Shown in pieces: positions 6,686 through 29,805 of a stretch of DNA of 45,737 bases. The translations under genes were made by a program, and so were the position numbers. Where the stretch lies: IMG/VR virus record IMGVR_UViG_3300050821_015712, positions 1-45,737 of that record; one strand, 5' to 3'. Each line of letters starts with the position of its first letter. The stretch's first letter is position 1. The notes under the pieces were generated by a model. The model was not told the DNA's origin. It made no database searches and saw only the letters and a program-made list of their open reading frames with translations. The stretch is from a virus.

Positions 6686-6692
6686 GAGCACG

Positions 6693-8137: not shown

Positions 8138-8140
8138 ACG

Positions 8141-8935: not shown

Positions 8936-8946
8936 AGGAGTACAAG

Positions 8947-9201: not shown

Positions 9202-9212
9202 CCGATTCCGAC

Positions 9213-11831: not shown

Positions 11832-11859
11832 TGCCCACGGTACGCATGGTGAACCCATC

Positions 11860-11878: not shown

Positions 11879-11920
11879 CATTTTGGAGTGGGACGGCACA
11901 CTCGGGAAGGAGAATACTCA

Positions 11921-12731: not shown

Positions 12732-13493
12732 ATGTTCACAGCAACAGAAAAACAAGCCAGCGCATCGTTCGGTACACCTTGGACCGAAGTGGATACGCAC
12801 GAACTTGGCCGTCCCCATCTCCGTTTCGGCAATCCCATTGTCGGCGGCGGACTGGAAGGACTGCGCCAGGCTTTGTACGACATCTACCGCGTCGATCCGA
12901 ACACCGTCGCTCCGCTGGTCACGCTGTTCTCCGTTCCCATCGGTGGCAACTACACCCAGGGCGTGGCCGCTTTGTTCCAAAAAACGAAGCTCCACACCAA
13001 TATGAAGCTCGGTGGTCTGCTCCAGTCGCCCAACAAGCACCTGGTGCGCTCCATCAAGTGCCGTATCTCGGGTGAACCCTCCGGCACGCAGCAGAATATC
13101 GCGAACGTCACCGACGTTCTCGGTTTCCTGTACGGCGTGCTCGCGGACTTCCAGGTCAACGACAAGGATTATTTCCTTGGCGAGCCTGCGGAGCATCCGC
13201 AGGGCGGCGGTGTGATGTTCTCGGCGGGTTCCGCAACCACCGTCGCGGCCACCACCACCGTCTCCGGAGTACCGAACAACGGATATCCGGACACACGGAA
13301 CATGTGGTCCACCGTGTACGACGGAATCTCGATCGAGCAAACGCAAACCTTCGGGCTCATCCTGGATCCGACTCAGGAAAACCTCGGAGCGTTCAAGACT
13401 CTGGCCGCCGCCGGCACGCTGTCCACCGGCCCTGGCACGGGTCTGAGCATCAAGTACGAGCTCGACGGGATCCTCTTCCGCGGGATCCAGTAG
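12732..13493 (+). CDS. Candidate major capsid protein
   Basis: 253 residues, soluble, no signal peptide or membrane segment, rich in beta pattern and Gly/Thr/Asn turns. Recognisable parts are LGRPHLRFGNPIVGGG near residue 27, LRQALYDIYRVDPNTV, VRSIKCRISGEPSGTQQNI in the middle, and LSIKYELDGILFRGIQ at the end. Support for a capsid role is indirect. It is preceded by a 208-base leader with hairpins and a strong ribosome binding site, it opens the cluster of beta-rich proteins that precedes the spikes, and no other capsid candidate of a known tailed-phage type exists. It could equally be a penton, or one of two or more jelly-roll proteins. Structure prediction would decide. Confidence 0.5.
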   Translation: MFTATEKQASASFGTPWTEVDTHELGRPHLRFGNPIVGGGLEGLRQALYDIYRVDPNTVAPLVTLFSVPIGGNYTQGVAALFQKTKLHTNMKLGGLLQSPNKHLVRSIKCRISGEPSGTQQNIANVTDVLGFLYGVLADFQVNDKDYFLGEPAEHPQGGGVMFSAGSATTVAATTTVSGVPNNGYPDTRNMWSTVYDGISIEQTQTFGLILDPTQENLGAFKTLAAAGTLSTGPGTGLSIKYELDGILFRGIQ

Positions 13494-13651: not shown

Positions 13652-14191
13652 ATGGCACAAGCAACTCAAACGACCTGCAAATGCTGCGCCGGACGGCGAA
13701 TCGTTCCGAATCCGTTGCAACGCAACATGCAGGCGTGTCCCATCTGCGGCGGCTCGGGCACGCAGCCGCAACAGGTTTTGCGCGTTCCGTACGACTACGT
13801 CTTTCCTCAGACGGTGCTCGCCGCCAACGCGCAAGGCAACATGGTCCTGCAGATCATGTTCGATTCCGATTTCGAATGGATCTTCACGGTCGGTTCGAGC
13901 ACCGGCGCTTTCATCATCACGGTCAACGATTCGTCGACCGGGCGCAACCTCTCGAACGCTCCCGTGCTCAGCTCGCTGTACATGGGCACGGCGCAATTGC
14001 CGTTTCCGTTCGTCGAGCCGTATCTTTTGGCGCGCTCGACGACCGTCACTGCCGCCGTGCAGGACGTGAGCGCCGCGGGCAACACCATTAACCTGGTGTT
14101 CAAAGGCTTCAAACTCTTCCCGAAAGACGCTCCGCAGCAAGGCGCTGCCGGACAAGTCTTTCCGGCGCAGCAGCAAGCTACTGGGAGCTAA
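13652..14191 (+). CDS. Beta-rich virion protein candidate with N-terminal zinc cluster
   Basis: 179 residues, with GAGAAGGAAACG before the ATG. Residues 9-31 hold four or more cysteines (CKCC, then CPICGGSG), a zinc-ribbon-like head. The remaining 140 residues are almost wholly beta: strand-turn repeats such as DFEWIFTVGSSTGAFIITV and INLVFKGFKLFP, length fitting a single jelly-roll. It is the first of three consecutive small beta-rich proteins. All three carry a late segment of the form LLARS/LRRTHTI/LLANRFV followed by a hydrophobic strand. A capsid, vertex or spike-base role is likely. The zinc head is unusual for such proteins. Confidence 0.55.
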   Translation: MAQATQTTCKCCAGRRIVPNPLQRNMQACPICGGSGTQPQQVLRVPYDYVFPQTVLAANAQGNMVLQIMFDSDFEWIFTVGSSTGAFIITVNDSSTGRNLSNAPVLSSLYMGTAQLPFPFVEPYLLARSTTVTAAVQDVSAAGNTINLVFKGFKLFPKDAPQQGAAGQVFPAQQQATGS

Positions 14192-14194
14192 GCC

Positions 14195-14722
14195 TTGCCT
14201 CGACAGCAAACCGTATTCCACCAAGATCGCGTGCCTGGCGTCCCTGGACGCTGGGCACTCGGCTTGTGGCTCACCTATCGCAAACTGGTCACGTCCGCGT
14301 ACGTTCCCGGGCAGAAATATCGTTCTCTGCTCAGCGGCCAGCAGCCGTACTGGTTTGTACTCGGTTTTCCCAATGGCAATTTTCTGCCCATGGCGCCGAA
14401 CTCCAACCAGGACGACCGCGTCACCTGCGTCAACGACTTCATCATGTTCGCCATGATGGGCGCGGCCGTCGACTTGGTTGGCGTGCAGAACTTCGATTTC
14501 TCCGCGCAGCTCTACGATTCCGGTGCGGATGAAAACTGGACGGAAGCGCTTTCGCCCTGCGCCAACAATTTCGGTACTGCGCAGCATCCTTTGATTCTGC
14601 GGCGCACGCACACCATCAAGGCGGGAACGCCGATCATCGCGCGTTTCCAAAATAGCCATGCGGTAAACAACAACATGCCGCAAATCGTTCTTTTCGGAGT
14701 GCTGGCGCCCGCGGCGCCGTAG
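14195..14722 (+). CDS. Beta-rich virion protein candidate (second of three)
   Basis: 175 residues from TTG 14195, with GGGAG upstream. No ATG would give a full-length product. The sequence is beta-rich and Asn/Gly-rich, without membrane segment or signal peptide. Parts: YWFVLGFPNGNFLPMAPNSN, CVNDFIMFAMMGAAVDLVG, and LRRTHTIKAGTPIIARFQNS near the end. The final pattern (strand, K/R-x-G-x-P, strand, N, strand) resembles the matching part of the next protein (LLANRFVRLQVTNASIVPAG), so the two may share a fold. Likely capsid or vertex protein; not proven. Confidence 0.55.
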   Translation: MPRQQTVFHQDRVPGVPGRWALGLWLTYRKLVTSAYVPGQKYRSLLSGQQPYWFVLGFPNGNFLPMAPNSNQDDRVTCVNDFIMFAMMGAAVDLVGVQNFDFSAQLYDSGADENWTEALSPCANNFGTAQHPLILRRTHTIKAGTPIIARFQNSHAVNNNMPQIVLFGVLAPAAP

Positions 14723-14731: not shown

Positions 14732-15253
14732 ATGGGCAGTCCACGTCAAGGATTGGGCGGCAGCGTCGAAGCGTATCTTCGGCAGACCAACAAGCAGGAT
14801 ATCTGTCCAGTCGCCATCATTCGTCTGCCCATTCATCTTTTCCCCAGCACCAAGAGTTTCAACCTGATCCGCACCGCGACCATCGTCATTCCGCCAGTCA
14901 GCGCCGGCGTGTTCACGGACATCGTGGCGTTTCGCATCGATCCGGGGAAAAACGGCATCCTTAAATTTATCGCCAACCAGTTTGTCGGAGGAGGCTTCAC
15001 GGATGGCAGCGGCGCACTCACCTGGCGGCTGCTGCACGATGAAAAGCCGGTCACTGGGCTGGAAAACATCAACGTTTCCCTCGGCACCAATCAGCTTCCC
15101 AGCGAAATCGCGCCGGTGCGCCTGCTGGCGAATCGCTTCGTGCGGCTGCAAGTTACCAACGCCTCGATCGTGCCCGCCGGGCAAATCATCGAAGGCGGCC
15201 TCCGCGGCTGGCTCTATCCCAAGGATGAGGAAGCCCCCGGAGCCAACTACTAA
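14732..15253 (+). CDS. Beta-rich virion protein candidate (third of three)
   Basis: 173 residues, with GTAGGGAG upstream. Soluble, beta-rich: FNLIRTATIVIPPVSAGVF, GILKFIANQFVGGGFTDGSG, then APVRLLANRFVRLQVTNAS and AGQIIEGGLRGWLYPKDE. It reads like a jelly-roll or similar beta-sandwich. It closes the group 13652-15253 just before the secreted spike genes, so it could be the vertex protein that anchors spikes. This is inference from order and composition only. Confidence 0.55.
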   Translation: MGSPRQGLGGSVEAYLRQTNKQDICPVAIIRLPIHLFPSTKSFNLIRTATIVIPPVSAGVFTDIVAFRIDPGKNGILKFIANQFVGGGFTDGSGALTWRLLHDEKPVTGLENINVSLGTNQLPSEIAPVRLLANRFVRLQVTNASIVPAGQIIEGGLRGWLYPKDEEAPGANY

Positions 15254-15261: not shown

Positions 15262-16329
15262 ATGCGTTCCCATTTCAAAAAGTTCGCCCTATCGATGCTT
15301 CTCGGCCTGCTCGGGCTCCTTTCTCCGCAGTCCGCTCAAGCGCAGGTCACGTATACGTCGCCACAAACGGTGACATCGACTGCGTTCAACAACATTGCGT
15401 GTACGGGTACCACACAGCGCGCCTTGATTCCGAATCTCGGACAAGTCGGTCACTTTATCACTCTTACGCTCGGAGTGATTCCTCACGGAATTTCAACGGC
15501 GATCCAGGGTTCGTATGATGGAGTGTTATTTTTCGACATTTCTAATACGGTAACTTTTGCAAACGGTTTGGTGCAACCGACCGGACAGGGACAGGGATAC
15601 TATCCGGTAGTCGCCGTCCGTGTGAATTGCCTGGACACCACCGGACGTTTCACCGTTTTTTACACGGGAACGGGAGGAAGCATCGGTCCCCCTTCCGGAA
15701 GCGCGGTCGTCAGCCAGGTGATTCAAAACATCACCATATCCGCGTCCGATGGCACTTCCAACCAATTTTCTCTTAATTCTCCGTTCGGAAATTCCGGAGG
15801 AGCTCTGATACTCCAGGCCAACGGCGCCATGCCGGCAGGGTCGAATGTGGAGTTGATCTGCGACCTGGCATCAGCGGTAGCTAATGTGGTCGGTCCATTT
15901 GCCATCCCCACCACCGCTGGAGTGTTTTCTTTTCCGATACCGAACTACCCGTGTGCAACGCCAGAGATCCAGTTTTTCTCTGGTGGAGCGAGTTCCAACA
16001 CCTACAATCTGTATTATTCCTTTTCTCAGCCAGGACTCGATTCTCCCGCATTCCTTTTTTCGCACATCACCGGAACCACGGCAACTTCAGTAAAAAGTTC
16101 GCCGTCGTCTTTCCTTCATAATTTGACGGTCAATACCGGAGCTGCGGGAACGATCAGTATTTTCGACTTGGCATCCAGCTCCTGCACTGGAACTCCTTCG
16201 ACGAACACGGCGGCGGTGATCACAGCCACGGCCACCACCCTCCAGACGTTCACCTACGACATCAATTTCGTCAATGGAATCTGTGTGAAGGCATCGGTAG
16301 CGATGGACATCACGGTTTCTTCTAAATAG
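15262..16329 (+). CDS. Secreted beta-rich protein (spike cluster, gene 1)
   Basis: 355 residues with TAAGGAGAACG before the ATG. The N-terminus is a clear Sec signal peptide: a basic start (MRSHFKKF), a Leu-rich core and cleavage after AQA near residue 28. The mature part is Ser/Thr/Gly/Asn-rich beta, without Lys/Arg-rich regions, typical of an extracellular adhesin or fibre. Segments: IQGSYDGVLFFDISN, and INFVNGICVKASVAMDITVSS at the end. No enzymatic motif. It is the first of six consecutive signal-peptide genes in the same direction. Confidence 0.8.
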   Translation: MRSHFKKFALSMLLGLLGLLSPQSAQAQVTYTSPQTVTSTAFNNIACTGTTQRALIPNLGQVGHFITLTLGVIPHGISTAIQGSYDGVLFFDISNTVTFANGLVQPTGQGQGYYPVVAVRVNCLDTTGRFTVFYTGTGGSIGPPSGSAVVSQVIQNITISASDGTSNQFSLNSPFGNSGGALILQANGAMPAGSNVELICDLASAVANVVGPFAIPTTAGVFSFPIPNYPCATPEIQFFSGGASSNTYNLYYSFSQPGLDSPAFLFSHITGTTATSVKSSPSSFLHNLTVNTGAAGTISIFDLASSSCTGTPSTNTAAVITATATTLQTFTYDINFVNGICVKASVAMDITVSSK

Positions 16330-16338
16330 GAGGATGGC

Positions 16339-17076
16339 ATGCGAAAAATAATTCAATGGAGTATCCGCCATCGATTGATTCTCGGCATTTTCTTGTTTTT
16401 AGTAGCGAATCATATGTTCGATGGCGGACCGTTCGATGTGGTCGTCAACACCTACGCCCAGGCAGCACCGACCACGGTTACGGCTACCATCAAGGATCCA
16501 TCGGGGCTTGCCTATGCCAACGCCAGCATAAACATTAGCCTGACGCCGGCAACGCCCGGAGGCGCTACGTGTACTGGATCCGGACCCATCGGCCAGATTC
16601 CAGTTTTCAACACCAACTCCAACGGTTTTTTCTCTATCAATCTTTGTCCCAATGGTTCCATCGTGCCGGCCAGTTCGCAGTGGCTGTTCACCGTTTCGCT
16701 TTCGCCGGGTATCCAACTTCCACTCGGGAAAGGACCGCAATCTTTTTCCGCAGCCATCACGATCTCCGGAGCTTCGCAGGATATCAGCGCCACACTCAAC
16801 GCTTTGGCTCCCGCTCTGACCACGAACGGCAATCTTGTGGCCACCAGTGCGGCTTTCGCCACCGCCACTACTGCCGGAACGTGCGTTCAAAGCACGACCG
16901 CGGTGGCGGGGGCCACAACCAGCATGGTCGCTACCGCTTCGCCCGTAAGCACTCCTGGAGTTGGCGCCGTATGGTCGGCATTTGTTTCGTCGGCAGGCAA
17001 CGTGACCATCAATGAATGTGCGGTAGCCACCAGCGCTGGCGGAACCATCGCCTTTAACATTCGTGTCCAACAATAG
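16339..17076 (+). CDS. Secreted protein with carboxypeptidase-regulatory-like domain (spike cluster, gene 2)
   Basis: 245 residues, with TAGGAGG before the ATG. A long signal peptide or anchor (RLILGIFLFLVANHM) probably ends after YAQA near residue 40. Residues about 42-155 (ATIKDPSGLAYANASINIS and so on) are a clear paralogue of the N-terminal domain of the 1889-residue protein that follows. The two agree through NGFFSINLCPN and end with LNALAPAL. The module resembles carboxypeptidase-regulatory-like/Ig-like folds, frequent in outer-surface proteins. The C-terminal 90 residues are Ala/Thr/Val-rich. It probably assembles with, or decorates, the large spike protein. Confidence 0.75.
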   Translation: MRKIIQWSIRHRLILGIFLFLVANHMFDGGPFDVVVNTYAQAAPTTVTATIKDPSGLAYANASINISLTPATPGGATCTGSGPIGQIPVFNTNSNGFFSINLCPNGSIVPASSQWLFTVSLSPGIQLPLGKGPQSFSAAITISGASQDISATLNALAPALTTNGNLVATSAAFATATTAGTCVQSTTAVAGATTSMVATASPVSTPGVGAVWSAFVSSAGNVTINECAVATSAGGTIAFNIRVQQ

Positions 17077-17085
17077 AGGGCTCCG

Positions 17086-20000
17086 ATGCGGAAGAGACTA
17101 CTGCTGGCAGCCACGCTCTTCCTCGCTGTGCCGTTCCTCGCTTTCGCTCAGTCGGTGGTCGTCACCGGAACGATCGTCGATCCCAACGGCCTGCCGTACT
17201 CGAATGCCAGCGTCAACATCAGCCTGACGCCGGCAGCGCCAGGCGGCGCGATCTGCACTGGGATCGGCCGCATCAATCCCAACGGCTCGTTCCTCACCAA
17301 TGGCAACGGCTTTTTCACCATAAATCTTTGTCCTAACGCTTCCATCACGCCGGTCGGGTCGCAGTGGCAATTCAACGTTTCGATTTCACCGGGAGCTTTG
17401 CCGCCGATCGGCACCGGACCGCAATCCTTTAGCTCCAATATCACCATTGTCGGTCCAGGACCACAGGACATCAGCACCACGCTGAACGCTCTCGCGCCGG
17501 CGCTGAGCCACATCACCGGAGGAGGCGGAGGCACTGGAAACTGCACTGCGCCTTCCCCAGCAGGCTCGCTGGTCAAAACCAATGTTCCCATCACCGGCTG
17601 CGTTGCCAGCAACGTAACCGAAGTCGGATCCGTGTTGTCCGTTGGCGATACAACTGACATTTTTGGAGACTTCCATACTGCAGGGCCAAATCCCTATTTC
17701 GACATCACGCTTTATGGCGGCTATGTCGGCACCAACACGGTAGGCACGACAGGCACGATGGGCGCAACATCCAGTTCACTGGCTATCGCTGCGACGCAGG
17801 ATTGGGCAAATGGGCAAGGCGTTGTTGTCTACGGCGCCGGACCAGCGCCTTCTCTCGGCACACCTTCAGGCGTAGTCGTCACTCCCGTTGGCATTCTGAA
17901 CGGATCCACGACGGTCAACTACAAAGTTGTGTCGGAAGATTATTTCGGCGGACTGACGGCAGCCAGCGCGGCGGGAACAACCACCACCGCGGCTTCCGCT
18001 TTGGGCGTTACGAACGCGACGATATCGAGCTGCAGCCGAAACGGAGGACTGGTTAGCTGCACCACTACAGCAAATCATAATTTTCAGGTAGGCAAGCAGG
18101 TCAACATACTGGCCGGCAGCACAGGGGACACTACTTTCGAGGGTGCATTCACCATCTATACAACGCCCACCGGAAGCTCGTTCACCTACTGGCAAAACCT
18201 GCTCCCGAATGTTTCAGGGACTGTCACTACAGGCACAGCGCAAGTCGTGGCGGCCAACCTGGTCCAGTGGACGATTCAGCCTTACGGCCCAATTCGCAGT
18301 TTCGTGTACCGGCAAGTGGGCGCGGGCGCTTTCGTGCTCACAGGCGTCGTGCAGGGCATGGACAGCGGATTTTACGATTTAGGATTTACGGTCAATCCGG
18401 CCAGCCTGCCAAGTTACGTGCCAACCACGCCCCCATCGTCCGTCACCAATCAATGGTTGTCGACCACTATTATGGCTGGCGGGGGAACTACGACGCTCAC
18501 TCTGGCAAGCGCAGCCACGAATTCAGTGACGGGCGTAGCAGTCTTGCACGACAACACGCAGAACGTGCTCAATCTCTGCAAAACGGGTGGAGCGGCCTCT
18601 GGCGGCGGCACCATCTACTTCCCTATCGGGATGAACGCGCTGTTCAACTCCACGTTGAATCTTTCGGGATGTTCGGGATTCCAGCAGCGATTCTTATTCG
18701 GCGTGCAGGCTACGGTGAACGAAACCATTCTGCCGGCACACCTATTTATCGACTCCGTACCATCGGCAGTCAGTCAGGTGGGCTTTCCGTCATGGAACGA
18801 TGGCACCCAACTATGGACCGGAAAAGGGTATCCACTGCTCTACCTTCTCCCTGGCTCCAGTTCCGGCAACAGCATTGGGCATATCTATTTTAACGTTTTT
18901 GGAGCCTACCAATCCGCGGTTGTGCAGGACGAAGACGCAACGGGAAACAACGTCGTCAACATTCAGTACAACTCCGACTATTTCGTAGGTGGCGCTAACA
19001 CCGGCCCACCGTTCGTCATGAAGGGCGGCGGCGGTTTCCTGTTCGAGAAGGGAGGTTTCGCAGTCGGCTCAACTAGTTTCGCTTCCCCTCCAGCGCTACT
19101 GATAATCCCCAATTTTGGTCTCGGCAACACATCGCAGCAACTTGCAGGAAACGTCAACCTGAACTACGTGTCCTTCGCGGGCGCGGGGATCGTGCTGGAC
19201 TCCGAAGCAGTCGTAAGCGTCTCGAACGGCTCACACATGACGTTCAGAGAACCGCTGATGGAGAGTTCCTTTACGCCTATCTTCCGAGCCGCTGGCGGTA
19301 GCGGCATCATCTCCGACATGGAGTTCGATAATCCCAGTTACGCGGACTTTGTAGGCGGCGCTGCTACGCCTCTGTTCGACATGACCACTGCGTCAAACCT
19401 CGAACAATTAAAAATTTACCAAGCGAATCCTAGTAACTCCAACCAGCCTATCGTCACAGGTCCCAATCTGACCAGTTCAAGTTCGCAAGGCTCCGTAAGC
19501 TACTCGGAATTGCCGAACTCCGGCTTTTCCTTGGATGCTTACAACAACTGGAACATCCTCGGATTCGGTACCTCCGAATTCGGCTACAGCCTGACTCAGC
19601 CAGTCGCGCCTAGCGGGTCCGCGGTTAGCGGCGGCACCATTCCTGCTAACAGTTACTGCTATAAAATCTTGCCGATTGATATCAACGGTGGCATAGGTCC
19701 CATCTCTTTACCCTCTGGGTGCATAGCAGTCAATGGCAGCCAGCAAATTACACTCAATTGGACTCCAGTCAACGGGCAGGTGAAGACCACAATCTGCCGG
19801 GGCACTACGGTTAACAACATCGGATGCGGCGGCGCGGTTGGCCTTATCGCTATCTCCGGAACGTCCTTCACGGACAATCATCCTCAAACTGACTTCTCCG
19901 TAAGCGTGCCACAATCCTCAACAGGAGCTTCATCCAGCGTTGGATCGGTAGGAATCAGTACCTATAATCTAAAACTCACGTCAAACGGGTCACTCATCAA

Positions 20001-22755
20001 CGTTCAAGCACCGCCGTCCTTGTCTACTCCTTGGACTTTCACTTTCCCACTAACGCCTGGTGTGAACGGCCAATTTCTGCAAACAGACGGCACTGGAACT
20101 TCGACTTGGTCCCCGGGATCGATCGGAACGGCGCACAACCTTTCCGCGGTACTGACATGCGCCGCAGCTTCCGGATCAGGCACGGCCTACACATGTTCGA
20201 CGTCTCCGACCTTCACGCCGGCCGATGGCGATATCGTCTTATTCCAGGCCGACGTTGCGAATACCGGCGCCGCAACTCTCAACGTAAATAGTTCCGTAGC
20301 CGCGCCCATCAAAAAACAAGGTGGCGGCACCGCCCTGGTCGCCAACGACCTACTCGCCGGGCAAGACACGTTGATGGAGTTCGACGGCACGAACTGGCAG
20401 ATGCAAGGGCAAACAGGGAATGCCACAGGCGGAGGCGGAATCTCGGGACTCACCACTGGCTTTCTGCCCAAAGCCGGCAGTTCGACGACCATTGTCAATT
20501 CGCTGTGTGATGAAGGCATCACACTTGCCAATACATTCACCTGCTCGGACACTGCTGGTGCGTCGTTCGTTTCTCTGACCACTACCGGATCAGCCGGCAC
20601 GGCTGGATTCATCCAGATGGGGCAAGGCACGGCGCCGTCGCTTGGGACGACGGCCGTGCAGTTAGTGGCTCCCGCCGCTGTCACCAGCTATCAAGTGATT
20701 TTGCCTGGCGCGGCCGCTACTGGCCTTGGACATTTTTCCAATGCCTCAAACGTCGTCACCATGTCGATTTCCGCCGTGACGCCAGCGGATGCCACCGGCA
20801 ATACCACCGGCAGCGGGAATTTCTGCCTTACGACTTCGTGCGTTCTCACCACACCATTTTTCGGCGGAGTGAACGCCCAAAGCGGAACCACCTACACGGT
20901 ATTGGCGACTGACAACGGCAAGCTGGTCACTCTGAACAATGCGGCAACGGTCAATGTAACGTTGGCTCAAGCCACTACCAGCGGATTCACATCCGGCTCT
21001 ATCTTCCGATTCCACAATCTTGGAACGGGCAACGTTGTCATCACGCCCACGACGTCGACAATCAATGGTGCAGCTACGCTGAATGTCCTCCCTGTGGCCT
21101 CGACGACCATTTTCAGCGATGGAACCAACTATTTTGCTCAGGACTTTCCAGAGCCATACGGCGGAATCAACTCGCAAACCGCAAACTATACCGCCGTTCT
21201 CACCGACAAAAACAAAATGGTGGTGATGAACGGCGCCAGTTTGACGCTCACTTTGCCATCACCGCCGCCCACCGCGCGCTGGAACATTCAGGTGGACAAC
21301 ATCAATGCGTCGTCTCTCACCATCAGCCGGAACGGTCTCACGATCGACGGCGCCGCTTCGAACCTGACGCTCACGCAAAACCAGGGCGTCTATATCACCA
21401 CGGATGGAACGAACTATTTCACCAACCGCGGTGTCGGCAGCGCCGGTGGTGGAGGCGGAACGGTAACCTCTATCGCCACCACGTCTCCCATCACCGGAGG
21501 TACGATCACCACGGCCGGCACGATCGCCTGCGCTACATGCGTGGTTGCCACTTCCCCAGGAGCCGGCGTTGCGCACTTTGCGGGATCCACGCAGACGGTG
21601 ACGAGCAGCGCCGTTACGCCGTCTGACGCCACGGGAAACACTACTGGAAGCGGAAACTTCGTTCTGTCGAACTCCCCAACGCTGGTCACTCCCGTGCTCG
21701 GCACCCCCACGTCGGGCACTCTCACCAACACCACCGGCTATATCTGGAATAACCTCGCTGCGCCAACCGGGAATCTTTCGCTAGCGATGGGTTCCGATAC
21801 GTCGATTTTCACCACGACGACGGCGCTTTCGCAAATGTTCGCCTGGAAAAATACGACGGCGGCCGTCGTAGGCACTTCGCAGGGATCGCCGATTCTTGCG
21901 CTATGCGGCACATCCTTTCACGGCTCCGCCAGCGTCGAGGATTGCCTGACACTCAGCGAGCTGCCCGGGAACGGAAACGACGCGCCGATCATACAAACCC
22001 TCGGGCATTCCGGGACATCGACGGGAGTGGTGACCGTCAATATCCCTGGGCAGTTGTCGATCGGCACTCCTCCGGCCATCACGATCGGGACGGCTGGCGG
22101 ACTTGCATGGACGGAAGGCACCGTCCCCACGGGATTGGCATCGACCGGTGAAGTGTATGCAAGTTCTTCAACCCATACGGTGAACGTAAACAACAACAAC
22201 ACGGGTGACATGCCGGTCAGCCGCACTCCGTGCGTGAACGTCACCCCAGTAACCGTCAACGCCAATGTGACCACCGACCAGCTTTTGATGTCCTGCACGC
22301 TGTCGGCGAACACGCTGAATGTGGTTGGGCACGTCCTGAAAATCTACGGCGCGGCTGTGTATTCCACGCCGGTCGCTTCGGCGGCCACGGTTAACCTAAA
22401 GGCGAAGCTTTGTACCGTATCCGGATGCGGAAGCGGGACGGTCATCAACCTGGCTTCGATCACTTCCACGGCGAACCCGGGCACCGTCACCAACAACGCG
22501 ATCCAATTGAACCTGGAAGCGGCGACGCAGACGGCGGGAGCTTCCTCGGCTTACGAGTCTCACGGTTATCTGCTGATCGACCTGGGGGCGTCGAATACGG
22601 TCGCGGATTCTATTTTTGCGGATACCAATACGGCCACGGTGGGCACCATCGATTCCACCGGCCAGCTCTTCCTGCAAATCACTGGAGCGTTTTCCGCCGC
22701 CAGCGCCAGCAACTCTCTGACGGAGCGTCTCCTGCGCGTGGAGCTGGTGAATTGA
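17086..22755 (+). CDS. Giant secreted spike/fibre protein (1889 aa) (spike cluster, gene 3)
   Basis: Signal peptide of about 22 residues (MRKRLLLAATLFLAVPF, cleavage after AFA). Next a carboxypeptidase-regulatory-like domain (about 23-140) paralogous to gene 2, and an Ig/FN3-like part. A right-handed beta-helix-like region (roughly 490-800, starting GGGTIYFPIG) is of the pectate-lyase/tailspike sort. A second FN3-like stretch follows. Then two or more copies of a fibre module (TYTVLATDNGKLVTLNNAAT and NYTAVLTDKNKMVVMNGAS) and two DATGNTTGSGNF linkers. The last 190 residues look like a phage fibre knob. The fibre modules are known from phage tail fibres. A Sec signal on such a protein is very unusual. 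Stop overlaps the next start. Confidence 0.85.
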   Translation: MRKRLLLAATLFLAVPFLAFAQSVVVTGTIVDPNGLPYSNASVNISLTPAAPGGAICTGIGRINPNGSFLTNGNGFFTINLCPNASITPVGSQWQFNVSISPGALPPIGTGPQSFSSNITIVGPGPQDISTTLNALAPALSHITGGGGGTGNCTAPSPAGSLVKTNVPITGCVASNVTEVGSVLSVGDTTDIFGDFHTAGPNPYFDITLYGGYVGTNTVGTTGTMGATSSSLAIAATQDWANGQGVVVYGAGPAPSLGTPSGVVVTPVGILNGSTTVNYKVVSEDYFGGLTAASAAGTTTTAASALGVTNATISSCSRNGGLVSCTTTANHNFQVGKQVNILAGSTGDTTFEGAFTIYTTPTGSSFTYWQNLLPNVSGTVTTGTAQVVAANLVQWTIQPYGPIRSFVYRQVGAGAFVLTGVVQGMDSGFYDLGFTVNPASLPSYVPTTPPSSVTNQWLSTTIMAGGGTTTLTLASAATNSVTGVAVLHDNTQNVLNLCKTGGAASGGGTIYFPIGMNALFNSTLNLSGCSGFQQRFLFGVQATVNETILPAHLFIDSVPSAVSQVGFPSWNDGTQLWTGKGYPLLYLLPGSSSGNSIGHIYFNVFGAYQSAVVQDEDATGNNVVNIQYNSDYFVGGANTGPPFVMKGGGGFLFEKGGFAVGSTSFASPPALLIIPNFGLGNTSQQLAGNVNLNYVSFAGAGIVLDSEAVVSVSNGSHMTFREPLMESSFTPIFRAAGGSGIISDMEFDNPSYADFVGGAATPLFDMTTASNLEQLKIYQANPSNSNQPIVTGPNLTSSSSQGSVSYSELPNSGFSLDAYNNWNILGFGTSEFGYSLTQPVAPSGSAVSGGTIPANSYCYKILPIDINGGIGPISLPSGCIAVNGSQQITLNWTPVNGQVKTTICRGTTVNNIGCGGAVGLIAISGTSFTDNHPQTDFSVSVPQSSTGASSSVGSVGISTYNLKLTSNGSLINVQAPPSLSTPWTFTFPLTPGVNGQFLQTDGTGTSTWSPGSIGTAHNLSAVLTCAAASGSGTAYTCSTSPTFTPADGDIVLFQADVANTGAATLNVNSSVAAPIKKQGGGTALVANDLLAGQDTLMEFDGTNWQMQGQTGNATGGGGISGLTTGFLPKAGSSTTIVNSLCDEGITLANTFTCSDTAGASFVSLTTTGSAGTAGFIQMGQGTAPSLGTTAVQLVAPAAVTSYQVILPGAAATGLGHFSNASNVVTMSISAVTPADATGNTTGSGNFCLTTSCVLTTPFFGGVNAQSGTTYTVLATDNGKLVTLNNAATVNVTLAQATTSGFTSGSIFRFHNLGTGNVVITPTTSTINGAATLNVLPVASTTIFSDGTNYFAQDFPEPYGGINSQTANYTAVLTDKNKMVVMNGASLTLTLPSPPPTARWNIQVDNINASSLTISRNGLTIDGAASNLTLTQNQGVYITTDGTNYFTNRGVGSAGGGGGTVTSIATTSPITGGTITTAGTIACATCVVATSPGAGVAHFAGSTQTVTSSAVTPSDATGNTTGSGNFVLSNSPTLVTPVLGTPTSGTLTNTTGYIWNNLAAPTGNLSLAMGSDTSIFTTTTALSQMFAWKNTTAAVVGTSQGSPILALCGTSFHGSASVEDCLTLSELPGNGNDAPIIQTLGHSGTSTGVVTVNIPGQLSIGTPPAITIGTAGGLAWTEGTVPTGLASTGEVYASSSTHTVNVNNNNTGDMPVSRTPCVNVTPVTVNANVTTDQLLMSCTLSANTLNVVGHVLKIYGAAVYSTPVASAATVNLKAKLCTVSGCGSGTVINLASITSTANPGTVTNNAIQLNLEAATQTAGASSAYESHGYLLIDLGASNTVADSIFADTNTATVGTIDSTGQLFLQITGAFSAASASNSLTERLLRVELVN

Positions 22756-24137
22756 GAAAATTTCTCGTACTCACATTCCTCATCCTGTGTGCGCTTCCGG
22801 CGCAGGCGACTTACGTCGGCGGAAATAAAAACACCGATACGACAGGGACGGCCACGAGCATCACCGTCACCTATAGCCCGACCGCGGGGAACTGCGTCGT
22901 CATCGGGTTGGGAGCATCCACCACGCTGACGGTCTCTTCCATCAAGGACAACAACAATACCGTCTACCAGTTTTTCGGAGTCCCGAACTTTAATAATTCC
23001 TCGGACTTTAACACCATGTCCGTTGCCTGCAACATCGGCTCCGGTATCACGTCCTTTACGGCCACGTTCACCGCGGGGCCCTCTCTTTTCATGGGCGTGG
23101 TGGAAGAATCCGGCTTCCAAAACTTCGGCGTGTTCACCTCCAATTCCAGCGCCAGCAACGTCGCGCCTCCTGGCGGAGCCACGCTAACGACGCAAGCCGC
23201 AAACAACGCCATCGTCGTGCTGGTTTCGACGAACGTCGGCGTTGGGCAAACAATGTCGTCAGGAACCGGCACGCTGCGTCAGTCGGCGGCGTACGGCGGG
23301 CGCGTTGCGGGTATGGCGGACAATACGACGGCCTCAGCTGGAACTTCGTTGACAGCTTCCGTCAACTGGACAGGTGGCAACGCTCCGTTCACTGCTACGG
23401 GCGTTGAACTCTCTACTTCGCCGATGAACCTGGTGCAGTTTACGGGTGGGGTTTGCAGCAACGCGGTGACGTGCTCGCAGGCGTTCGCCAATCCCACGCA
23501 GATTGGTGACTACAAGATTGTTGCAAGTTACGACGGTTCCTCGCCCACCGCCAACGACACATTTTCGGACACGATCGACACCTATACGCAGGTCTCTCCT
23601 GGAGGGCACGTCTTCTGCGGACTGGCGACGGACGGCGACACCATCGCCATGTCCTTCGCTAAGGTATCGACGAACGTTACCCCCACCGTCACCATTGCCA
23701 ACGGCGGCACCACTGGGCACAAAACACTACTGCTCGCTGAGTTCAACGGTCTCGCGGCGTCCAGCCCGCTTGACCAGACATCGAACTGCACCAACACGCT
23801 TTCCGTGACCTCGTTGACGACCGGAAGCGTCACCACCACAGTTGCCAACGAAGTCATCGTCGCTGTATTCGGCACTGCGAATGGCAACACCTTCACGGCG
23901 GGGACGAACTATACCCTACTGTCGCAGCAGAACCCGGCCCCCGCCGCTGTTTCCGCGCAAGAGTTCCGTTCAGTAATCGCGACGGGAAGCTATAACGCTG
24001 CGGCGAGCTTCACAGGAGCCGCGCAGGAAGCGGCTGGCTTCCTCGCGACCTTCAAGGCGGCATCCCAGCCAGGTACCACCACCGGCACGATCTTTTTTGG
24101 ACCATCAAAACTTTTCGGAGGAACGCTGTCTTGGTAA
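22752..24137 (+). CDS. Secreted beta-rich adhesin-like protein (spike cluster, gene 4)
   Basis: 461 residues from TTG 22752, which overlaps the previous stop (TTGA), with GGAGCTGG upstream. A longer open frame exists upstream but lies inside the preceding gene. Signal peptide MRKFLVLTFLILCALPAQA, cleavage after AQA. The mature protein consists of two similar Ser/Thr-rich beta halves: NTDTTGTATSITVTYSP opens the first, and NPTQIGDYKIVASYDGSS opens the second. The pattern (TAGNCVVIGLGAST, then ITSFTATFT) is like repeated surface beta-sandwich modules in secreted bacterial proteins. No catalytic residues visible. Probably part of the receptor-binding complex. Confidence 0.75.
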   Translation: MRKFLVLTFLILCALPAQATYVGGNKNTDTTGTATSITVTYSPTAGNCVVIGLGASTTLTVSSIKDNNNTVYQFFGVPNFNNSSDFNTMSVACNIGSGITSFTATFTAGPSLFMGVVEESGFQNFGVFTSNSSASNVAPPGGATLTTQAANNAIVVLVSTNVGVGQTMSSGTGTLRQSAAYGGRVAGMADNTTASAGTSLTASVNWTGGNAPFTATGVELSTSPMNLVQFTGGVCSNAVTCSQAFANPTQIGDYKIVASYDGSSPTANDTFSDTIDTYTQVSPGGHVFCGLATDGDTIAMSFAKVSTNVTPTVTIANGGTTGHKTLLLAEFNGLAASSPLDQTSNCTNTLSVTSLTTGSVTTTVANEVIVAVFGTANGNTFTAGTNYTLLSQQNPAPAAVSAQEFRSVIATGSYNAAASFTGAAQEAAGFLATFKAASQPGTTTGTIFFGPSKLFGGTLSW

Positions 24138-27100
24138 AGTCTTTTTCATTTCTCGCCATCCTTTTGTTTGCGGGACTGTCTCTGCACGCACAGTCTGGAA
24201 CCATCGTCGGCGGATCCGCTAAAATTTCCGGAACGGCAGCTATCTCCGTTGTGCAAACCGGAGGAGGAGGTGGCGGTGGTCCCCTCAATCTGCCGTGCGG
24301 CACCACGCTGGGATGGTGCGACCTGACGGGGCTGAATATGGCGGCGACGGGATGTCCTTCGCCAAGTCCCGGTGGTGCTGAGAATTGCGACGCCATCATC
24401 CGTAAATGGGGCGGTGCGCTATACGATACGAAGCGCAACCGCCTGGTCATGTTCGGCGGCGGACACACCGATTACTTTGGCAACGAGATTTTCTATCTCG
24501 ATTTGGTGAACAAGACGTTTCCTCAATTGACAACTCCGACCGTGGCGGCCAATCTCAATCTCTGCCAGGACGCTACCCTTGATAGCCCGGCGCGAATCAC
24601 CGCGCGGCATACCTATGGCGGATTGGAGTATTGGGCCGCGAACGATACCTACTATGAATTCGGTGGAGCACAAGCCTGCTCAACGGGCGTTGGAACGAGC
24701 GGAAGCTGGATGTTCAATCCGAATGCGAGCAACCTGACGGTGAATGGCTGGACTTCGCTGGGCTCGCTGGCGTTCACGGCATCCGGCACCACGCAGATCG
24801 CCGCGGACCCGGCCAGTGGATTCATCTGGCTTGACGATGGGCACCAGCTCTGGCACTTCCAACCGAGCACCAACACTCTCCTTGGCCCCAACACGTGTTT
24901 CGGTTGCACCAGCTTCTTTATCGAATCCACGATGGCGGTGGACCCGATTCACCGTGTGCTCTGGCAGATTGGGAACAACGGGGGTGTGAAGGTTGCACGT
25001 ACGGATATTTCCAATCCGAATTCAGTGGGCAATGCACAACAGACACAACCCACGCTCGATGCGAGCTGCAACGCGCTTACCGGGTCGGAGGCTCCCGGCC
25101 TGGATTGGGATCCGGTGCTAGGTGTCATGGTCGGATGGCCCCAGTTCGGCAACAGCGTTTACTTATTTAATTCTGGACCTACCGATAACGCCATCACACC
25201 CTATGGGACGATTGCCCCTCAGACGTGTCTCGCCGTGACATTCGCGAGTGGCCCTCCAGACTCGAACCACAATCAATCGCCCTCGTCCTCGACCGGCGTT
25301 TACGGCCGCTGGCGGTACGTGCCGGCCGCAAACGTCCACGTTCTTTGCAACGATTTCAATATTGACTGTTTCTATCTTCGCCTGACCAATCAGGTGCAAA
25401 GCCTGCAACTCACAGCGACCACCACAGGAACACTTCCGTTTACGGTTGGGCTGGCATTCAAGCAGGGCGACGTTCCCAGCGGGAAAACTCCTCAACTGAC
25501 CAACTCGACCAGCCAGGTGGTCGTCAAATCCACCTGGCCCGATGGCAGCGCAAAGACGGCCATCGCTTCCGGTCGCACCGCTCTCACTTCCGGCGTACCG
25601 AAAACCATCAACGTGGTATGGGGAAGCAATTCCGGCACGCCGATGACCTGCTCGAACATCCAGACCGCTGCGCCCTCTGCTTCGATTCAGGTTGGCGCCA
25701 TCGGAACCGTCTCGCTCTCCAGCCTGCTTGCAACGCCATTTCGCACTTGGGTGAGCGGTTCGGAGATGGTGGAGTGCCACTATCGCGCGCAAGTCGGCTC
25801 TGACGCTTCTCTCGTCGCATGGTTCCACGTCCGTCTCTACGCGGATGGTAGCATGTGGGTGCGCGAAATCGTCGAGAACGGCTACCTCGATGTCGCCACC
25901 GTGGACAAATCGTACGTGCCCACGGCCATCATCGGAGGCACGACGGTCTACAACAATGGCGGGTCGTCCCTGACCAACTACGCTCAGACTCGCTGGGCAG
26001 TGGAAGGCTGGATTGGCACGAATCCCGGCATCACGCCAACGCACGATACCGTCTACCTGGAAGCCACGAAGCTGCTGCCCAACTATTTCAATTTCACACC
26101 CTCGGCGACTGCGCTCAACAACCTGACGCAAACGTACACGCCGATGCAGAAAGGCGACTGGACCACGGACATGGGTTCTACCGGGTTCCAGAATCAGATC
26201 GGGCTATTACCGCTGTGGGATGCGCTCTACGTCACCTCGAAAGCCGATTCCCGTGCCTACAATGCCGTCATCTCCGATTCCAAATCGCTCAACAGTTACG
26301 CCATCATCTGGAACGACAGCGCTACTGGCGTAGTCGCCGATCCGGTCAGCCGCTCGACATGGACGGTGCTCGGAAACAATGGAGGAGGCATCACATCTAT
26401 CGGCGCAGGCCCGCTCAACTGGGATATCGCTCACCATGGCTCCGGCGGCTATCTTGCCTATATCCTGACCGGCGACTATTACCACTACGAAACGATGGCG
26501 CACCAAGCCTCCATGTGCTTCCTGGCCAACAATTCCGCGCATGGCTCCGGTGTGAACCGCACGTTCGAATCCGTCGTGCAGGATCGTGGCGTGGCGTGGT
26601 GCAACCGCACGCTCTCACAGTACATCGCGCTCGCTCCATCCTCCGATACCGTCGCTGCCGACTACTCAACTCTGCTGGCCAACACCGTGACGAAGCTGAA
26701 CAATCGCGTGCAAGCGGTCGGCGTGACGCCTATCGGATATTTCCTCACCTACGACGTAACCAGCGGGTCGTATCTGCCCTTCAACGGAAACTCCAATGTG
26801 AGCGTAAACGCCGCGTGGCAGCAGCACTTCATGATTCAGTCGCTCGGGATGGGCGTGGACCTACAGCCGCTCGCCAACATGACGAATTATACGGCGCTGG
26901 CGACCTGGTCGAACCGCGCCATCGTCGGCATCCTCGGGCCCAACGGCTCCACGAACTACTGCTTCACGAACGCTTCCACGTACAACGTGCAGGTGGCCGA
27001 TACACAGACGGGAGACTTGACGCTTTGGTACCCCGACTGGGGAACGGTGTGGACGAAAAACCAAGGCAGCCCCAATACTTCTTGCGGCAATACGTTGCAG

Positions 27101-27301
27101 GGGAGTTCTGGCGGCGATCCATTGAACGCAGCAACGGGCTTTTGGGGTAATCTTATCCCTGCGGCTGCCTATGCTTTCGACCACAGCGCGCCGGGTGCCG
27201 TGGCAGCGTGGAGCAGATTGACCGGCGCGACCAACTGGAACACCAGCGTGCTCAATAGCGGGTTCGGCGACATACCGATTTGGGGCATTTCGCATCGATA
27301 G
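24131..27301 (+). CDS. Secreted glycan-lyase-like spike protein: Kelch-like + exo-rhamnogalacturonan-lyase-like (spike cluster, gene 5)
   Basis: 1056 residues from TTG 24131 with GGAGG nine bases upstream. Signal peptide to about LHA. Residues about 60-430 contain Kelch-like beta-propeller signatures (RLVMFGGGHTDYFGNEIFYLD). Residues about 435-560 resemble the N-domain of exo-rhamnogalacturonan-lyase-like proteins (PFTVGLAFKQGDVPSG, then STWPDGSAKTAIASG). The C-terminal half resembles an alpha/alpha toroid of polysaccharide lyases or hydrolases (GGYLAYILTGDYYHYETMAH, then QDRGVAWCNRTLSQYIALAP). It probably degrades or binds host surface polysaccharide. Its export signal parallels its neighbours. 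Family assignments are from memory of motif patterns. Confidence 0.75.
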   Translation: MVKSFSFLAILLFAGLSLHAQSGTIVGGSAKISGTAAISVVQTGGGGGGGPLNLPCGTTLGWCDLTGLNMAATGCPSPSPGGAENCDAIIRKWGGALYDTKRNRLVMFGGGHTDYFGNEIFYLDLVNKTFPQLTTPTVAANLNLCQDATLDSPARITARHTYGGLEYWAANDTYYEFGGAQACSTGVGTSGSWMFNPNASNLTVNGWTSLGSLAFTASGTTQIAADPASGFIWLDDGHQLWHFQPSTNTLLGPNTCFGCTSFFIESTMAVDPIHRVLWQIGNNGGVKVARTDISNPNSVGNAQQTQPTLDASCNALTGSEAPGLDWDPVLGVMVGWPQFGNSVYLFNSGPTDNAITPYGTIAPQTCLAVTFASGPPDSNHNQSPSSSTGVYGRWRYVPAANVHVLCNDFNIDCFYLRLTNQVQSLQLTATTTGTLPFTVGLAFKQGDVPSGKTPQLTNSTSQVVVKSTWPDGSAKTAIASGRTALTSGVPKTINVVWGSNSGTPMTCSNIQTAAPSASIQVGAIGTVSLSSLLATPFRTWVSGSEMVECHYRAQVGSDASLVAWFHVRLYADGSMWVREIVENGYLDVATVDKSYVPTAIIGGTTVYNNGGSSLTNYAQTRWAVEGWIGTNPGITPTHDTVYLEATKLLPNYFNFTPSATALNNLTQTYTPMQKGDWTTDMGSTGFQNQIGLLPLWDALYVTSKADSRAYNAVISDSKSLNSYAIIWNDSATGVVADPVSRSTWTVLGNNGGGITSIGAGPLNWDIAHHGSGGYLAYILTGDYYHYETMAHQASMCFLANNSAHGSGVNRTFESVVQDRGVAWCNRTLSQYIALAPSSDTVAADYSTLLANTVTKLNNRVQAVGVTPIGYFLTYDVTSGSYLPFNGNSNVSVNAAWQQHFMIQSLGMGVDLQPLANMTNYTALATWSNRAIVGILGPNGSTNYCFTNASTYNVQVADTQTGDLTLWYPDWGTVWTKNQGSPNTSCGNTLQGSSGGDPLNAATGFWGNLIPAAAYAFDHSAPGAVAAWSRLTGATNWNTSVLNSGFGDIPIWGISHR

Positions 27302-27313
27302 GAGGATTTTGAA

Positions 27314-27937
27314 ATGAGAAAGATTCTTGTAATTGCAGTTTTGATGCTGATGGCAGCGAGCGGGCTGCGCGCGCAGACGACGACCACCACGGTCACGATC
27401 GTTGCACCGGCATCGCTGGGAACCGTCACGCCCACTCCTTCACATTTTTATCAAAACACTGCGGCGCCGATTTCGCTGGCCAGCTCGACCAACGGTTTCA
27501 ACTCTGGTTGCACGGTCACCGTGGGGTCGACGGCGCTCACCGTGACTTTCAGCTCGACCACGCAGGCGTTGACCGGCACGCTCACCGCGGCGATGACTTC
27601 CGGCGCGGTAGGTTCGACCGTGACGATTACGATCGCCTGTACTCCGCCTGCTTTGACGATGCTCAGTCCGGTGACACTCCCAAACGCCCAATTGGGATCG
27701 GCCTACTCGGCGAATCTCGCCACCCTGGCCAACCTGCAGAAGAACGGCCAACCCTGCACAACGTGCAGTTTCAGTTGCAACAGTCCGTGCACGCTACCTG
27801 CCGGATTTGCATTGTCCGCCGCAGGCATCGTTAGCGGGATTGCCACGGTGTCGGGAACCTTCACTGCTGGCTTTACCGTCACGGACACCAGCGTGTCCGC
27901 CTCACGAATCGCGCAAGTGCGGTGGATTGCAGGTTGA
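27314..27937 (+). CDS. Secreted Ig-like protein (spike cluster, gene 6)
   Basis: 207 residues with TAGGAGG upstream. Signal peptide MRKILVIAVLMLMAASGLRA with cleavage after LRA. The mature part holds a Thr/Ser-rich beta domain (VTIVAPASLGTVTPTPSHF) and a second domain of the putative-Ig (He_PIG) kind: LGSAYSANLATL, then LPAGFALSAAGIVSGIATVSG. Two or three disulfides are possible (CTTCSFSCNSPC). It is the last of the six signal-peptide genes and the smallest. A stabilising or adaptor subunit of the exported spike is a reasonable guess. Confidence 0.75.
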   Translation: MRKILVIAVLMLMAASGLRAQTTTTTVTIVAPASLGTVTPTPSHFYQNTAAPISLASSTNGFNSGCTVTVGSTALTVTFSSTTQALTGTLTAAMTSGAVGSTVTITIACTPPALTMLSPVTLPNAQLGSAYSANLATLANLQKNGQPCTTCSFSCNSPCTLPAGFALSAAGIVSGIATVSGTFTAGFTVTDTSVSASRIAQVRWIAG

Positions 27938-28924: not shown

Positions 28925-29102
28925 ACTCATCGTGGTCTCCGATGACGGCCAAACCTCCGCCATCCTCGATCTGCTGAAAGACGAACTGCGCGGCAACATG
29001 CCGCTGGATCAGTTCGTCGAGATCATCCGCAAACCGATTTTGAAGCTGGTGAAGCTGGACGTCGAACCGAGAGTCTCGAACGCCGGGAGCGCGCGTGCCT
29101 AA
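28911..29102 (+). CDS. Small hypothetical protein
   Basis: 63 residues from ATG 28911, the start that limits overlap with the preceding gene to 14 bases. Begins MPQVKLIVVSDDGQTSAILD and continues amphipathic-helical. Overlaps the GTG start of the transglycosylase gene by eight bases. No family recognised. Spacing and codon use support it as real. Confidence 0.55.
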   Translation: MPQVKLIVVSDDGQTSAILDLLKDELRGNMPLDQFVEIIRKPILKLVKLDVEPRVSNAGSARA

Positions 29103-29805
29103 CGCGCTGCAAGCCTGGCAGCCGGCGCGCCTGAGCATCTATGGCTTGGTGCGTGCGGCTCGAGGCGGCCTGGGCGCCGCCAGCACCACGCCCGCGATCG
29201 CGACTCTGGTGCAACAGGCGGCCATCCGCTATGGCGTGGATCCCGGACTGGCGCTCAGCGTGGCGCAGCATGAATCCGCATTGAATCCCAACGCGGTAAG
29301 CTCGGCCGGCGCCCAGGGCGTGATGCAGCTCGAACCGCCCACCGCCGCGCAGTATGGCGTCACCAATCCATTCGATCCCGTGCAGAACGTGAACGCCGGC
29401 GTGCACTACCTGGCCGATCTGATCGCGCAATTTGGCGGCGACGTCGTCAAAGGCGTGGCGGCCTACAATTGGGGCCCGGGAAACCTGAACAATGCCATCA
29501 ACACTTACGGCGGCAATTGGCTGAGCGCCGCCCCCACGGAGACGCAAAACTATGTTGCCGCCATTACCGGAGTTACCGCGGAGTCCAATGCGCCTTCGCC
29601 GGCCGTTCCGCAGCCTTCGCAGCAGAGTGCTGCGCCTGTTACGATCGATGCGTCAACTGGCCTTCCCGTGGTGGACGGGATGGACGTAAGCCAGCTCGAT
29701 ACGATCAGCGCCGGCGTGCTTCCCGGTTCGATTCCTCAATCGGTGGTGTACGGTGGATTGGCGCTCGGCGCGATCGTGGCGGTGCAGCTTCTAACGCGCG
29801 ATTAA
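29095..29805 (+). CDS. Membrane-anchored lytic transglycosylase (SLT fold)
   Basis: 236 residues from GTG 29095. Residues about 38-160 carry the SLT lytic-transglycosylase signature: catalytic Glu60 in AQHESALNPNAVS, then GAQGVMQLEP, then GVHYLADLIAQFGGDV and AAYNWGPGNLN. This enzyme type cleaves peptidoglycan glycan strands, leaving 1,6-anhydro-muramic ends. The C-terminus is a membrane segment (SVVYGGLALGAIVAVQLLT), which agrees with the tail-anchored architecture of the putative virion membrane proteins. It is therefore a good candidate for a virion-borne entry enzyme, like PRD1 P7, rather than the lysis enzyme. A second such enzyme follows at 30238. Confidence 0.88.
   Translation: MPNALQAWQPARLSIYGLVRAARGGLGAASTTPAIATLVQQAAIRYGVDPGLALSVAQHESALNPNAVSSAGAQGVMQLEPPTAAQYGVTNPFDPVQNVNAGVHYLADLIAQFGGDVVKGVAAYNWGPGNLNNAINTYGGNWLSAAPTETQNYVAAITGVTAESNAPSPAVPQPSQQSAAPVTIDASTGLPVVDGMDVSQLDTISAGVLPGSIPQSVVYGGLALGAIVAVQLLTRD

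Follow-up and report, generated by a model that had tools for sequence, protein, structure and literature searches.

Six consecutive genes in the DNA of a bacterial virus analysed here (45,737 nucleotides, hereafter the window) encode proteins that begin with a Sec signal peptide (SP), and their sequences make it very likely that these proteins are exported and cleaved. We propose, with a probability of about 0.5, that they are late-expressed, exported, disulfide-bonded proteins that bind or cleave glycans, act outside the cytoplasm and are released at lysis. The cytoplasm is where dsDNA phages normally make and assemble their receptor-binding and depolymerase proteins. Export tags on fibre-like and enzyme-like proteins are unexpected, since phage attachment proteins normally stay cytoplasmic until the particle is built. 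The six genes, each named by its first coordinate, are as follows.

15262..16329, plus strand: SP protein 1, 355 aa; SP MRSHFKKFALSMLLGLLGLLSPQSAQA, then QVTYTSPQT; score 8.3; core family of the virus group
16339..17076, plus strand: SP protein 2, 245 aa; score 6.7; long atypical SP and an N-terminal domain of about 110 aa in common with 17086
17086..22755, plus strand: SP protein 3, 1889 aa, fibre-like; SP MRKRLLLAATLFLAVPFLAFA, then Q; score 8.8
22752..24137, plus strand: SP protein 4, 461 aa; start codon TTG, in overlap with the stop of 17086; SP LRKFLVLTFLILCALPAQA, then T; score 8.7
24131..27301, plus strand: SP protein 5, 1056 aa; TTG start; SP MVKSFSFLAILLFAGLSLHA, then Q; score 5.9
27314..27937, plus strand: SP protein 6, 207 aa; SP MRKILVIAVLMLMAASGLRA, then Q; score 7.9

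All six lie on one strand with no other gene between them, separated by gaps of 9-12 bases or overlapping by 4-7 bases. Four start with ATG (15262, 16339, 17086 and 27314); the two TTG starts, at 22752 and 24131, overlap the stop of the preceding gene, and SD-like sequences precede most of the six starts. SPs were called with a home-made SPase-I caller at a cut-off score of at least 5.5; in calibration against 119 genes of E. coli K-12, it passed 16/17 known SPs, 1/73 cytoplasmic proteins and 7/29 inner-membrane proteins. Eight of the 55 window genes passed, six of them in a single run (permutation P about 6.5e-5), and shuffled N-termini passed in 1-25% of trials. The preliminary description of this DNA had claimed six consecutive Sec SP genes spanning 12.7 kb; the scores of 5.9-8.8 bear out the first point, and the open reading frames, confirmed at the starts listed above, cover 12.7 of 45.7 kb. 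The hallmarks of Sec export and SPase I cleavage (basic n-region, h-region, small residues at -3/-1) were found in the six, with 16339 atypical. AxA-type sites had been ascribed to every member, and this holds strictly for 15262 (AQA), 17086 (AFA) and 22752 (AQA), but not for 24131 (LHA) and 27314 (LRA), which have Leu at -3, while the AQA of 16339 lies atypically far (about 20 residues) past the hydrophobic core. A TM scan found no clear TM segment downstream of the SP in any of the six, save a marginal hydrophobic stretch in 27314. Tat export was set aside because no twin-arginine motif was seen, as was lipoprotein export because the cleavage sites lack a lipobox.

Export has good support, since family members retain both the SP and its cleavage boundary and the mature proteins have paired cysteines. 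Relatives of this virus, 33-39 kb in length, are present in IMG/VR, and the SP trait recurs in them as well as in unrelated tailed soil phages. When the trait was sought in related contigs, the 15262 family, a core family of the relatives, proved to carry an SP in 16/16 members, each scoring at least 5.9, with A or S at -1 and A, C, S or V at -3 in all 16, a conserved A|Q boundary and an invariant Gln at mature position +1. Neither the sequence nor the length (20-27) of the SP is constant, and its codon changes preserve hydrophobic character. In three neighbouring capsid-block families, SPs were found in 0/65 proteins. The N-terminal domain of 16339 and 17086, which are 62% identical across this region, occurs in 15 related records and bears an SP in 31 of its 33 copies, across non-tailed and tailed-phage contigs. 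Among mature SP proteins, cysteine number was even rather than odd at 44:15, as compared with 136:171; counting one member per family gives P about 0.044, which is of marginal significance only. The mature parts of all six cluster proteins have an even number of cysteines (six in 27314), and such pairing would be expected after export.

Three of the six proteins had been described as carrying fibre, beta-helix or lyase modules, a claim that finds no support in PHROGs or Pfam beyond a match of 24131 to PcRGLX_1st that falls under the cut-off (E 0.03). It is possible that 24131 is a glycan-active protein. Over residues 544-860, 24131 shares 27% identity with gp39 of EBPR siphovirus 1, which, unlike 24131, has no SP and comes from a tailed phage. 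In 17086, the SP and the shared N-terminal domain are followed by a long repetitive beta-rich region. No homologue of 22752 was found in related records, and the accessory SP proteins of relatives include CHB_HEX_C, Fn3_assoc and tectonin domains.

The preliminary description started from a tailed phage, which is probably wrong. The features that bear on the type of virus are the following.

5651..10939, plus strand: block of proteins whose TM segments are C-terminal or internal (5651, 6693, 7487, 8141 and 10103; TM scan)
12732..13493, plus strand: candidate major capsid protein, 253 aa; jelly-roll-like; no SP
13652..14191, plus strand: capsid-block protein of a family with paralogues; no SP
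14195..14722, plus strand: capsid-block protein, 175 aa (gene call); BLAST matches in 3 records; no SP
14732..15253, plus strand: capsid-block protein, 173 aa, immediately upstream of the SP cluster; no SP; family of 16, SP in 0
29095..29805, plus strand: SLT transglycosylase with a C-terminal TM segment at residue 215 (Pfam SLT E 2.5e-28)
42029..43873, minus strand: HerA/FtsK-like ATPase, putative genome packaging motor, 614 aa

This virus probably lacks a tail, since PHROGs and Pfam gave no match to a terminase large subunit, portal or HK97-fold capsid protein among the window proteins of at least 300 aa scanned, and the window instead encodes the HerA/FtsK-like ATPase together with tail-anchored membrane proteins and a capsid candidate that resembles a jelly roll; divergent tailed-phage genes could fall below detection. 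Those window proteins that were queried against 50,697 phage records gave no match beyond one partial match to 24131. The Walker A (GQTQFGKTT) and Walker B (FVVPEAW) motifs of the ATPase are conserved in 17 viral contigs, and in PDB profile comparisons it comes closest to DUF87 (E 0.027) and HerA (E 0.56) proteins. The comparison with the P23-77 ATPase was weak, HHalign giving nothing usable, and single-sequence scans of viral contigs with the ATPase or a motif pattern gave no match. In a search for the host, relatives of the ATPase were found only on short MAG contigs of mixed taxa, unfit to name a host; the N-terminal domain of 16339 and 17086 has no relative among the genome contigs searched for one.

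Homologues of the capsid candidate 12732 occur in 15 of the 18 records holding the ATPase. Its AF2 model (pLDDT 57.6, pTM 0.54) best matches single jelly-roll capsid proteins in VIA-align (SPV1 Z 7.5, HCIV-1 5.7 and SH1 5.5, all below the Z 8 mark), and the only double jelly-roll proteins among the leading matches of this moderate-confidence model are STIV (Z 5.7) and one iridovirus (Z 5.1). Foldseek gave nothing with E < 0.001, HHalign no profile match to P23-77 VP16 or VP17, and no double jelly-roll capsid protein was matched at the sequence level. An open reading frame at 11228-12523 was rejected as a capsid gene, being in the wrong frame according to codon-usage gene calls. The 13652 family has 33 members in 16 genomes, none with an SP. 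In the TM block, 5651 is transglutaminase-like (Pfam Transglut_core E 4e-7), and the tail-anchored proteins are only suggestive of a membrane-containing virion. The membrane-containing tailless phages PRD1, PM2, FLiP and P23-77 have packaging ATPases broadly similar in kind to the putative one here, as well as small membrane proteins and capsid proteins of a type other than HK97, and in PRD1 the transglycosylase P7 ends, like 29095, in a TM segment. Unlike the cluster proteins, however, PRD1 P2 and P5, PM2 P1 and the P23-77 capsid proteins have no SP, and the genomes of these phages are 9-17 kb, as against 33-46 kb in the group described here, a probably tailless group that appears to be undescribed in the literature searched.

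Cultured phages with a comparable arrangement are found among those of Tunturiibacter (Acidobacteriota). The podovirus-like Tunturi_1 and Tunturi_2 (PP887698 and PP885685; PMC11924767) are tailed phages that encode a terminase, a portal and a major head protein, which sets them apart from this probably non-tailed virus, yet their late structural module contains a run of genes, gp12, gp13, gp14, gp16 and gp17, with SP scores of 5.7-8.8 and, as in our cluster, an even cysteine number in most. These genes are annotated as tail spike, tail fibre or virion structural protein; the term 'signal peptide' is absent from the main text of PMC11924767, in which both matches to 'signal' fall in the reference list. 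In a non-tailed relative of our virus, one SP protein shares 39% identity over 116 aa with Tunturi gp17. In the siphovirus-like Tunturi_4 (PP885687), also a tailed phage of Tunturiibacter and unrelated to the other two, gp113 and gp114 bear SPs, whereas the adjoining tail fibre gp111 does not, and gp114 fuses its own SP to a domain 47% identical to residues 390-1061 of Tunturi_1 gp17.

A mechanism consistent with these observations is that the six genes form the variable end of a late operon in a probably non-tailed, membrane-containing virus, and that their products would be translated together with the capsid genes, exported by Sec and cleaved by signal peptidase I. Once in the periplasm or further out, they may be oxidized to disulfide-bonded, beta-rich proteins that bind or cleave glycans, whether these belong to the producing cell, to neighbouring cells or to the surrounding matrix, and they would be released at lysis. 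In such a scheme, 15262 would be a conserved core component, 16339 and 17086 would bear a widely exchanged N-terminal domain, and 22752, 24131 and 27314 would be accessory cargo of this virus. SPs are present at all six starts and absent from the neighbouring capsid genes, and SP clusters occur in the structural modules of Tunturi_1 and Tunturi_2 and in the unrelated Tunturi_4. Moreover, the cassette of SP and N-terminal domain moves between tailed and non-tailed viruses, and a host-side need is therefore likelier than docking to one kind of virion. The secreted adhesin or depolymerase system envisaged in the preliminary description is the part of its interpretation that survives best. Against secretion, no sequence indicates a route across the outer membrane before lysis.

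A less probable alternative is that the proteins are exported receptor-binding spikes or fibres of the virion: folding and disulfide formation would take place once they have left the cytoplasm, and they would join the particles during lysis or later. The 15262-type genes are core and lie directly behind the capsid genes across the group, and no other spike or receptor-binding candidate is visible in the window; for 15262, a virion spike therefore fits at least as well as a secreted protein. Its modules had no match in the tailed-phage set, and the annotations of the Tunturi SP genes agree with a place on the virion. Late mounting is familiar from phage P22, whose tailspikes attach to otherwise finished particles. 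The N-terminal domain of a fibre is, however, usually its docking end, and here that domain is common to viruses with very different particles; several accessory members, furthermore, look enzymatic or variable.

It is improbable that the hydrophobic N-termini are instead uncleaved anchors in the virion membrane or the host inner membrane. The virus has many membrane proteins and the 16339 leader is atypically long, but the conserved (-3,-1) residues and +1 Gln throughout the 15262 family, the cysteine pairing and the same arrangement in membrane-less tailed phages argue against anchoring. Slightly less probable still is that the SPs came along with gene fragments acquired from hosts and contribute nothing to infection. 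Viruses have clearly exchanged modules with one another, yet the SP is retained throughout the core family and in nearly all domain copies in divergent viruses, under codon changes that keep it hydrophobic. Budding, with virions assembling at or outside the inner membrane where exported proteins gather, was the other part of the preliminary interpretation and is the least credible, since, despite exported soluble and tail-anchored membrane proteins in one virus, the SP proteins have no anchor past the SP, several lysis-type enzymes such as the SLT transglycosylase are present, and SP clusters occur equally in phages with terminase, portal and head protein, tailed phages not being known to bud.

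Neither a precedent for exported phage fibres nor a description of the trait was found in the literature searched, to whose scope subscription journals and preprints did not belong. A bolder, somewhat unlikely proposal is that a tailless lineage and, by convergence, several tailed phages that infect Acidobacteriota and other soil hosts export their receptor-binding proteins via Sec, mature them by disulfide formation outside the cytoplasm and add them to virions no earlier than lysis; if true, this would constitute an extracytoplasmic last step of phage assembly. The cultured Acidobacteriota phages that share the trait make the question testable, including whether an exported protein such as 15262 is mounted on virions. 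The conserved core protein and the repeated late clusters of export signals, seen in tailless as well as tailed soil phages, imply either a secreted arm of infection, which may act on cells or matrix before and after lysis, or completion of the virion outside the cytoplasm.

The 45,737-base IMG/VR record carries an 86-base repeat at its two ends and is therefore a circularly assembled genome. At 15262-27937 it contains six adjacent genes on one strand. In all six products the N-terminus has a basic stretch and a hydrophobic core, and a plausible signal-peptidase site comes next. The starts are firmly assigned, since they follow strong SD-like sequences or overlap a preceding stop codon. Signal peptides were scored with a home-made caller. 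It was calibrated on three E. coli K-12 regions of 49 kb each, where a cut-off of 5.5 passed 16 of 17 known signal peptides, 1 of 73 cytoplasmic proteins and 7 of 29 inner-membrane proteins. All six products exceeded this cut-off (scores 5.9-8.8), and a run of six such genes among the 55 in the window has a permutation P of about 6.5e-5, so the claim of the preliminary description that six consecutive genes encode Sec signal peptides held with this caller. Only two genes outside the cluster passed, and they are possibly a spanin pair:

32497-33039 (+), protein with a lipoprotein-like leader
35343-35726 (-), small protein that looks membrane-anchored

The preliminary description had also proposed looking for the cluster in related contigs, and signal-peptide genes recur there. 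Of the late-block genes that follow the capsid gene in the relatives, 42 of 167 encode signal peptides; the counts are 1/95 for the capsid-plus-upstream block and 1/84 for the remainder of that strand. Conservation was compared across 16 relative genomes.

Homologues of window genes in the 16 relative genomes
12732, candidate major capsid protein: 15
13652, capsid-block family: 15
14732, capsid-block family: 15
15262, first cluster gene: 13 by BLAST, 15 by profile
16339/17086, domain of two cluster genes: 15
42029-43873, ATPase: 16
5651, transglutaminase-like: 12

No homologues of the remaining cluster genes (22752, 24131 and 27314) were found in the relatives, and the cluster thus consists of a core and variable cargo. 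Every member of the 15262 family, the window's included, has a signal peptide (16/16); none was found in three capsid-block families (12732, 0/16; 13652, 0/33; 14732, 0/16). The leader of the 15262 family varies from 20 to 27 residues, and the mature protein starts with an invariant Gln, usually within QF[IVL]G, after Ala (15) or Ser (1) at -1 and Ala, Cys, Ser or Val at -3. Such a pattern, with the boundary fixed and the hydrophobic leader before it variable, is expected if cleavage occurs. Chitobiase-C-terminal/Fn3-associated/InlB-like repeats or tectonin domains occur in accessory signal-peptide proteins of the relatives (L053:1607-3889 (-); L033:5420-7066 (+); L025:6901-8376 (+)) and point to carbohydrate binding.

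Disulfide-forming proteins that bacteria export tend to have an even number of cysteines, a property used to predict DsbA substrates (e.g. PMC7678975). Across the group, even and odd counts were 44:15 for mature signal-peptide proteins versus 136:171 for other proteins (Fisher P 1.5e-5), and with one member per family the median was 16:5 versus 50:44 (P about 0.044). The six window proteins are all even (6, 4, 26, 6, 18 and 6), and the window proteins that lack signal peptides divide 9:12.

What kind of virus encodes this cluster? Among the window proteins of at least 300 residues that were scanned, none matched a terminase, portal or HK97 capsid protein in PHROGs and Pfam. Gene 42029-43873 encodes an ATPase whose motifs are HerA/FtsK-like; the best PDB matches of its profile, a DUF87 protein and HerA, are both weak. 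A scan with the ATPase alignment returned 17 IMG/VR contigs, and among 18 related records recruited via the ATPase or the N-terminal domain of 16339 and 17086, 15 encode the candidate capsid protein; several related contigs are 33-39 kb with terminal repeats of 97-127 bases. The model of the capsid candidate is moderate (pLDDT 57.6, pTM 0.54). Viral jelly-roll capsid proteins make up most of its top structural matches, with SPV1 first (Z 7.5) and HCIV-1 and SH1 included, although Z below 8 is suggestive only. Several late proteins have a C-terminal transmembrane segment, and an SLT transglycosylase that has one resembles PRD1 P7 in layout. From the lack of tailed-phage hallmarks, the ATPase and the moderate capsid model, we infer a tailless, probably membrane-containing virus. 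For prokaryotic double jelly-roll viruses, genome sizes of 7-18 kb have been described (PMC5894146), and by that measure a member with 33-46 kb would be large.

Other features of this genome and its relatives are as follows:

5651-6685 (+), transglutaminase-like protein with a C-terminal transmembrane segment, unusual in a phage virion gene block
6693-7487 and 8141-8935, tail-anchored proteins with a common N-terminal motif, MSTANPTGVRPW
39922-40917 (-), phrog_2045 protein (E 6e-110) with no assigned function, kept in 10 relatives
34865-34939 (+), the one tRNA gene, anticodon CAT

A repeated RLxRLRGLRGLGR stretch occurs in several late membrane proteins (6693-7487, 8141-8935, also 5651, 7487 and 10103), possibly with a role in capsid binding or processing. 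Short MAG contigs assigned to Gemmatimonadales, Nitrosopumilus and Asgard archaea (L072-L075) encode relatives of the ATPase with 36-42% identity; either the tailless group may include viruses of archaea or the binning of these contigs may be wrong.

The signal peptides are also found in tailed phages. The N-terminal domain of 16339 and 17086, roughly 110 residues, occurs in other contigs, including one with matches to terminase, portal and major head protein (L006), one with a terminase match (L008) and one that by inspection has portal and head proteins in common with L006 (L004). Across all contigs a signal peptide precedes 31 of 33 copies, a slightly generous count because the best start was taken. 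Among cultured phages of Acidobacteriota, Tunturi_1 and Tunturi_2 resemble the window cluster in having signal peptides on gp12, gp13, gp14 (tail spike or pectin lyase), gp16 and gp17 (virion structural protein), and four of the five in Tunturi_1 have an even cysteine number. In Tunturi_4, a siphovirus with a different host species, they are on gp113 and gp114, and gp114 is the Tunturi_1 gp17 domain with a signal peptide of its own and without the first 390 residues of gp17; none was seen among the structural genes scanned in Tunturi_3. A possible link to Acidobacteriota as hosts rests on the modules in common with the Tunturi phages and on the resemblance of the leaders. In contrast, an EBPR siphovirus 1 homologue of part of 24131 and the spikes of PRD1 and PM2 lack signal peptides, and the trait therefore belongs to these lineages and not to fibres in general.

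One possibility is that the signal-peptide proteins are spikes mounted on the virion. The case is strongest for 15262: the gene is core, it was confined to the tailless group in the searched sets, and that group has no other kind of spike candidate. However, a fibre usually docks to the particle by its N-terminal end, and here that end is common to tailed and tailless viruses; because of this, we rank free or cell-associated secreted adhesins and glycan-active proteins slightly higher. Two facts speak against assembly by budding, which the preliminary description had also raised: tailed phages show the trait too, and the signal-peptide proteins have no membrane anchor.

At the sequence level, the observations are signal peptides and their conservation, a conserved boundary, cysteine pairing and a late-operon position. 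The cluster products probably leave the cytoplasm by Sec export, lose their signal peptides by cleavage and fold outside the cytoplasm, and they may be released at lysis and act on glycans.
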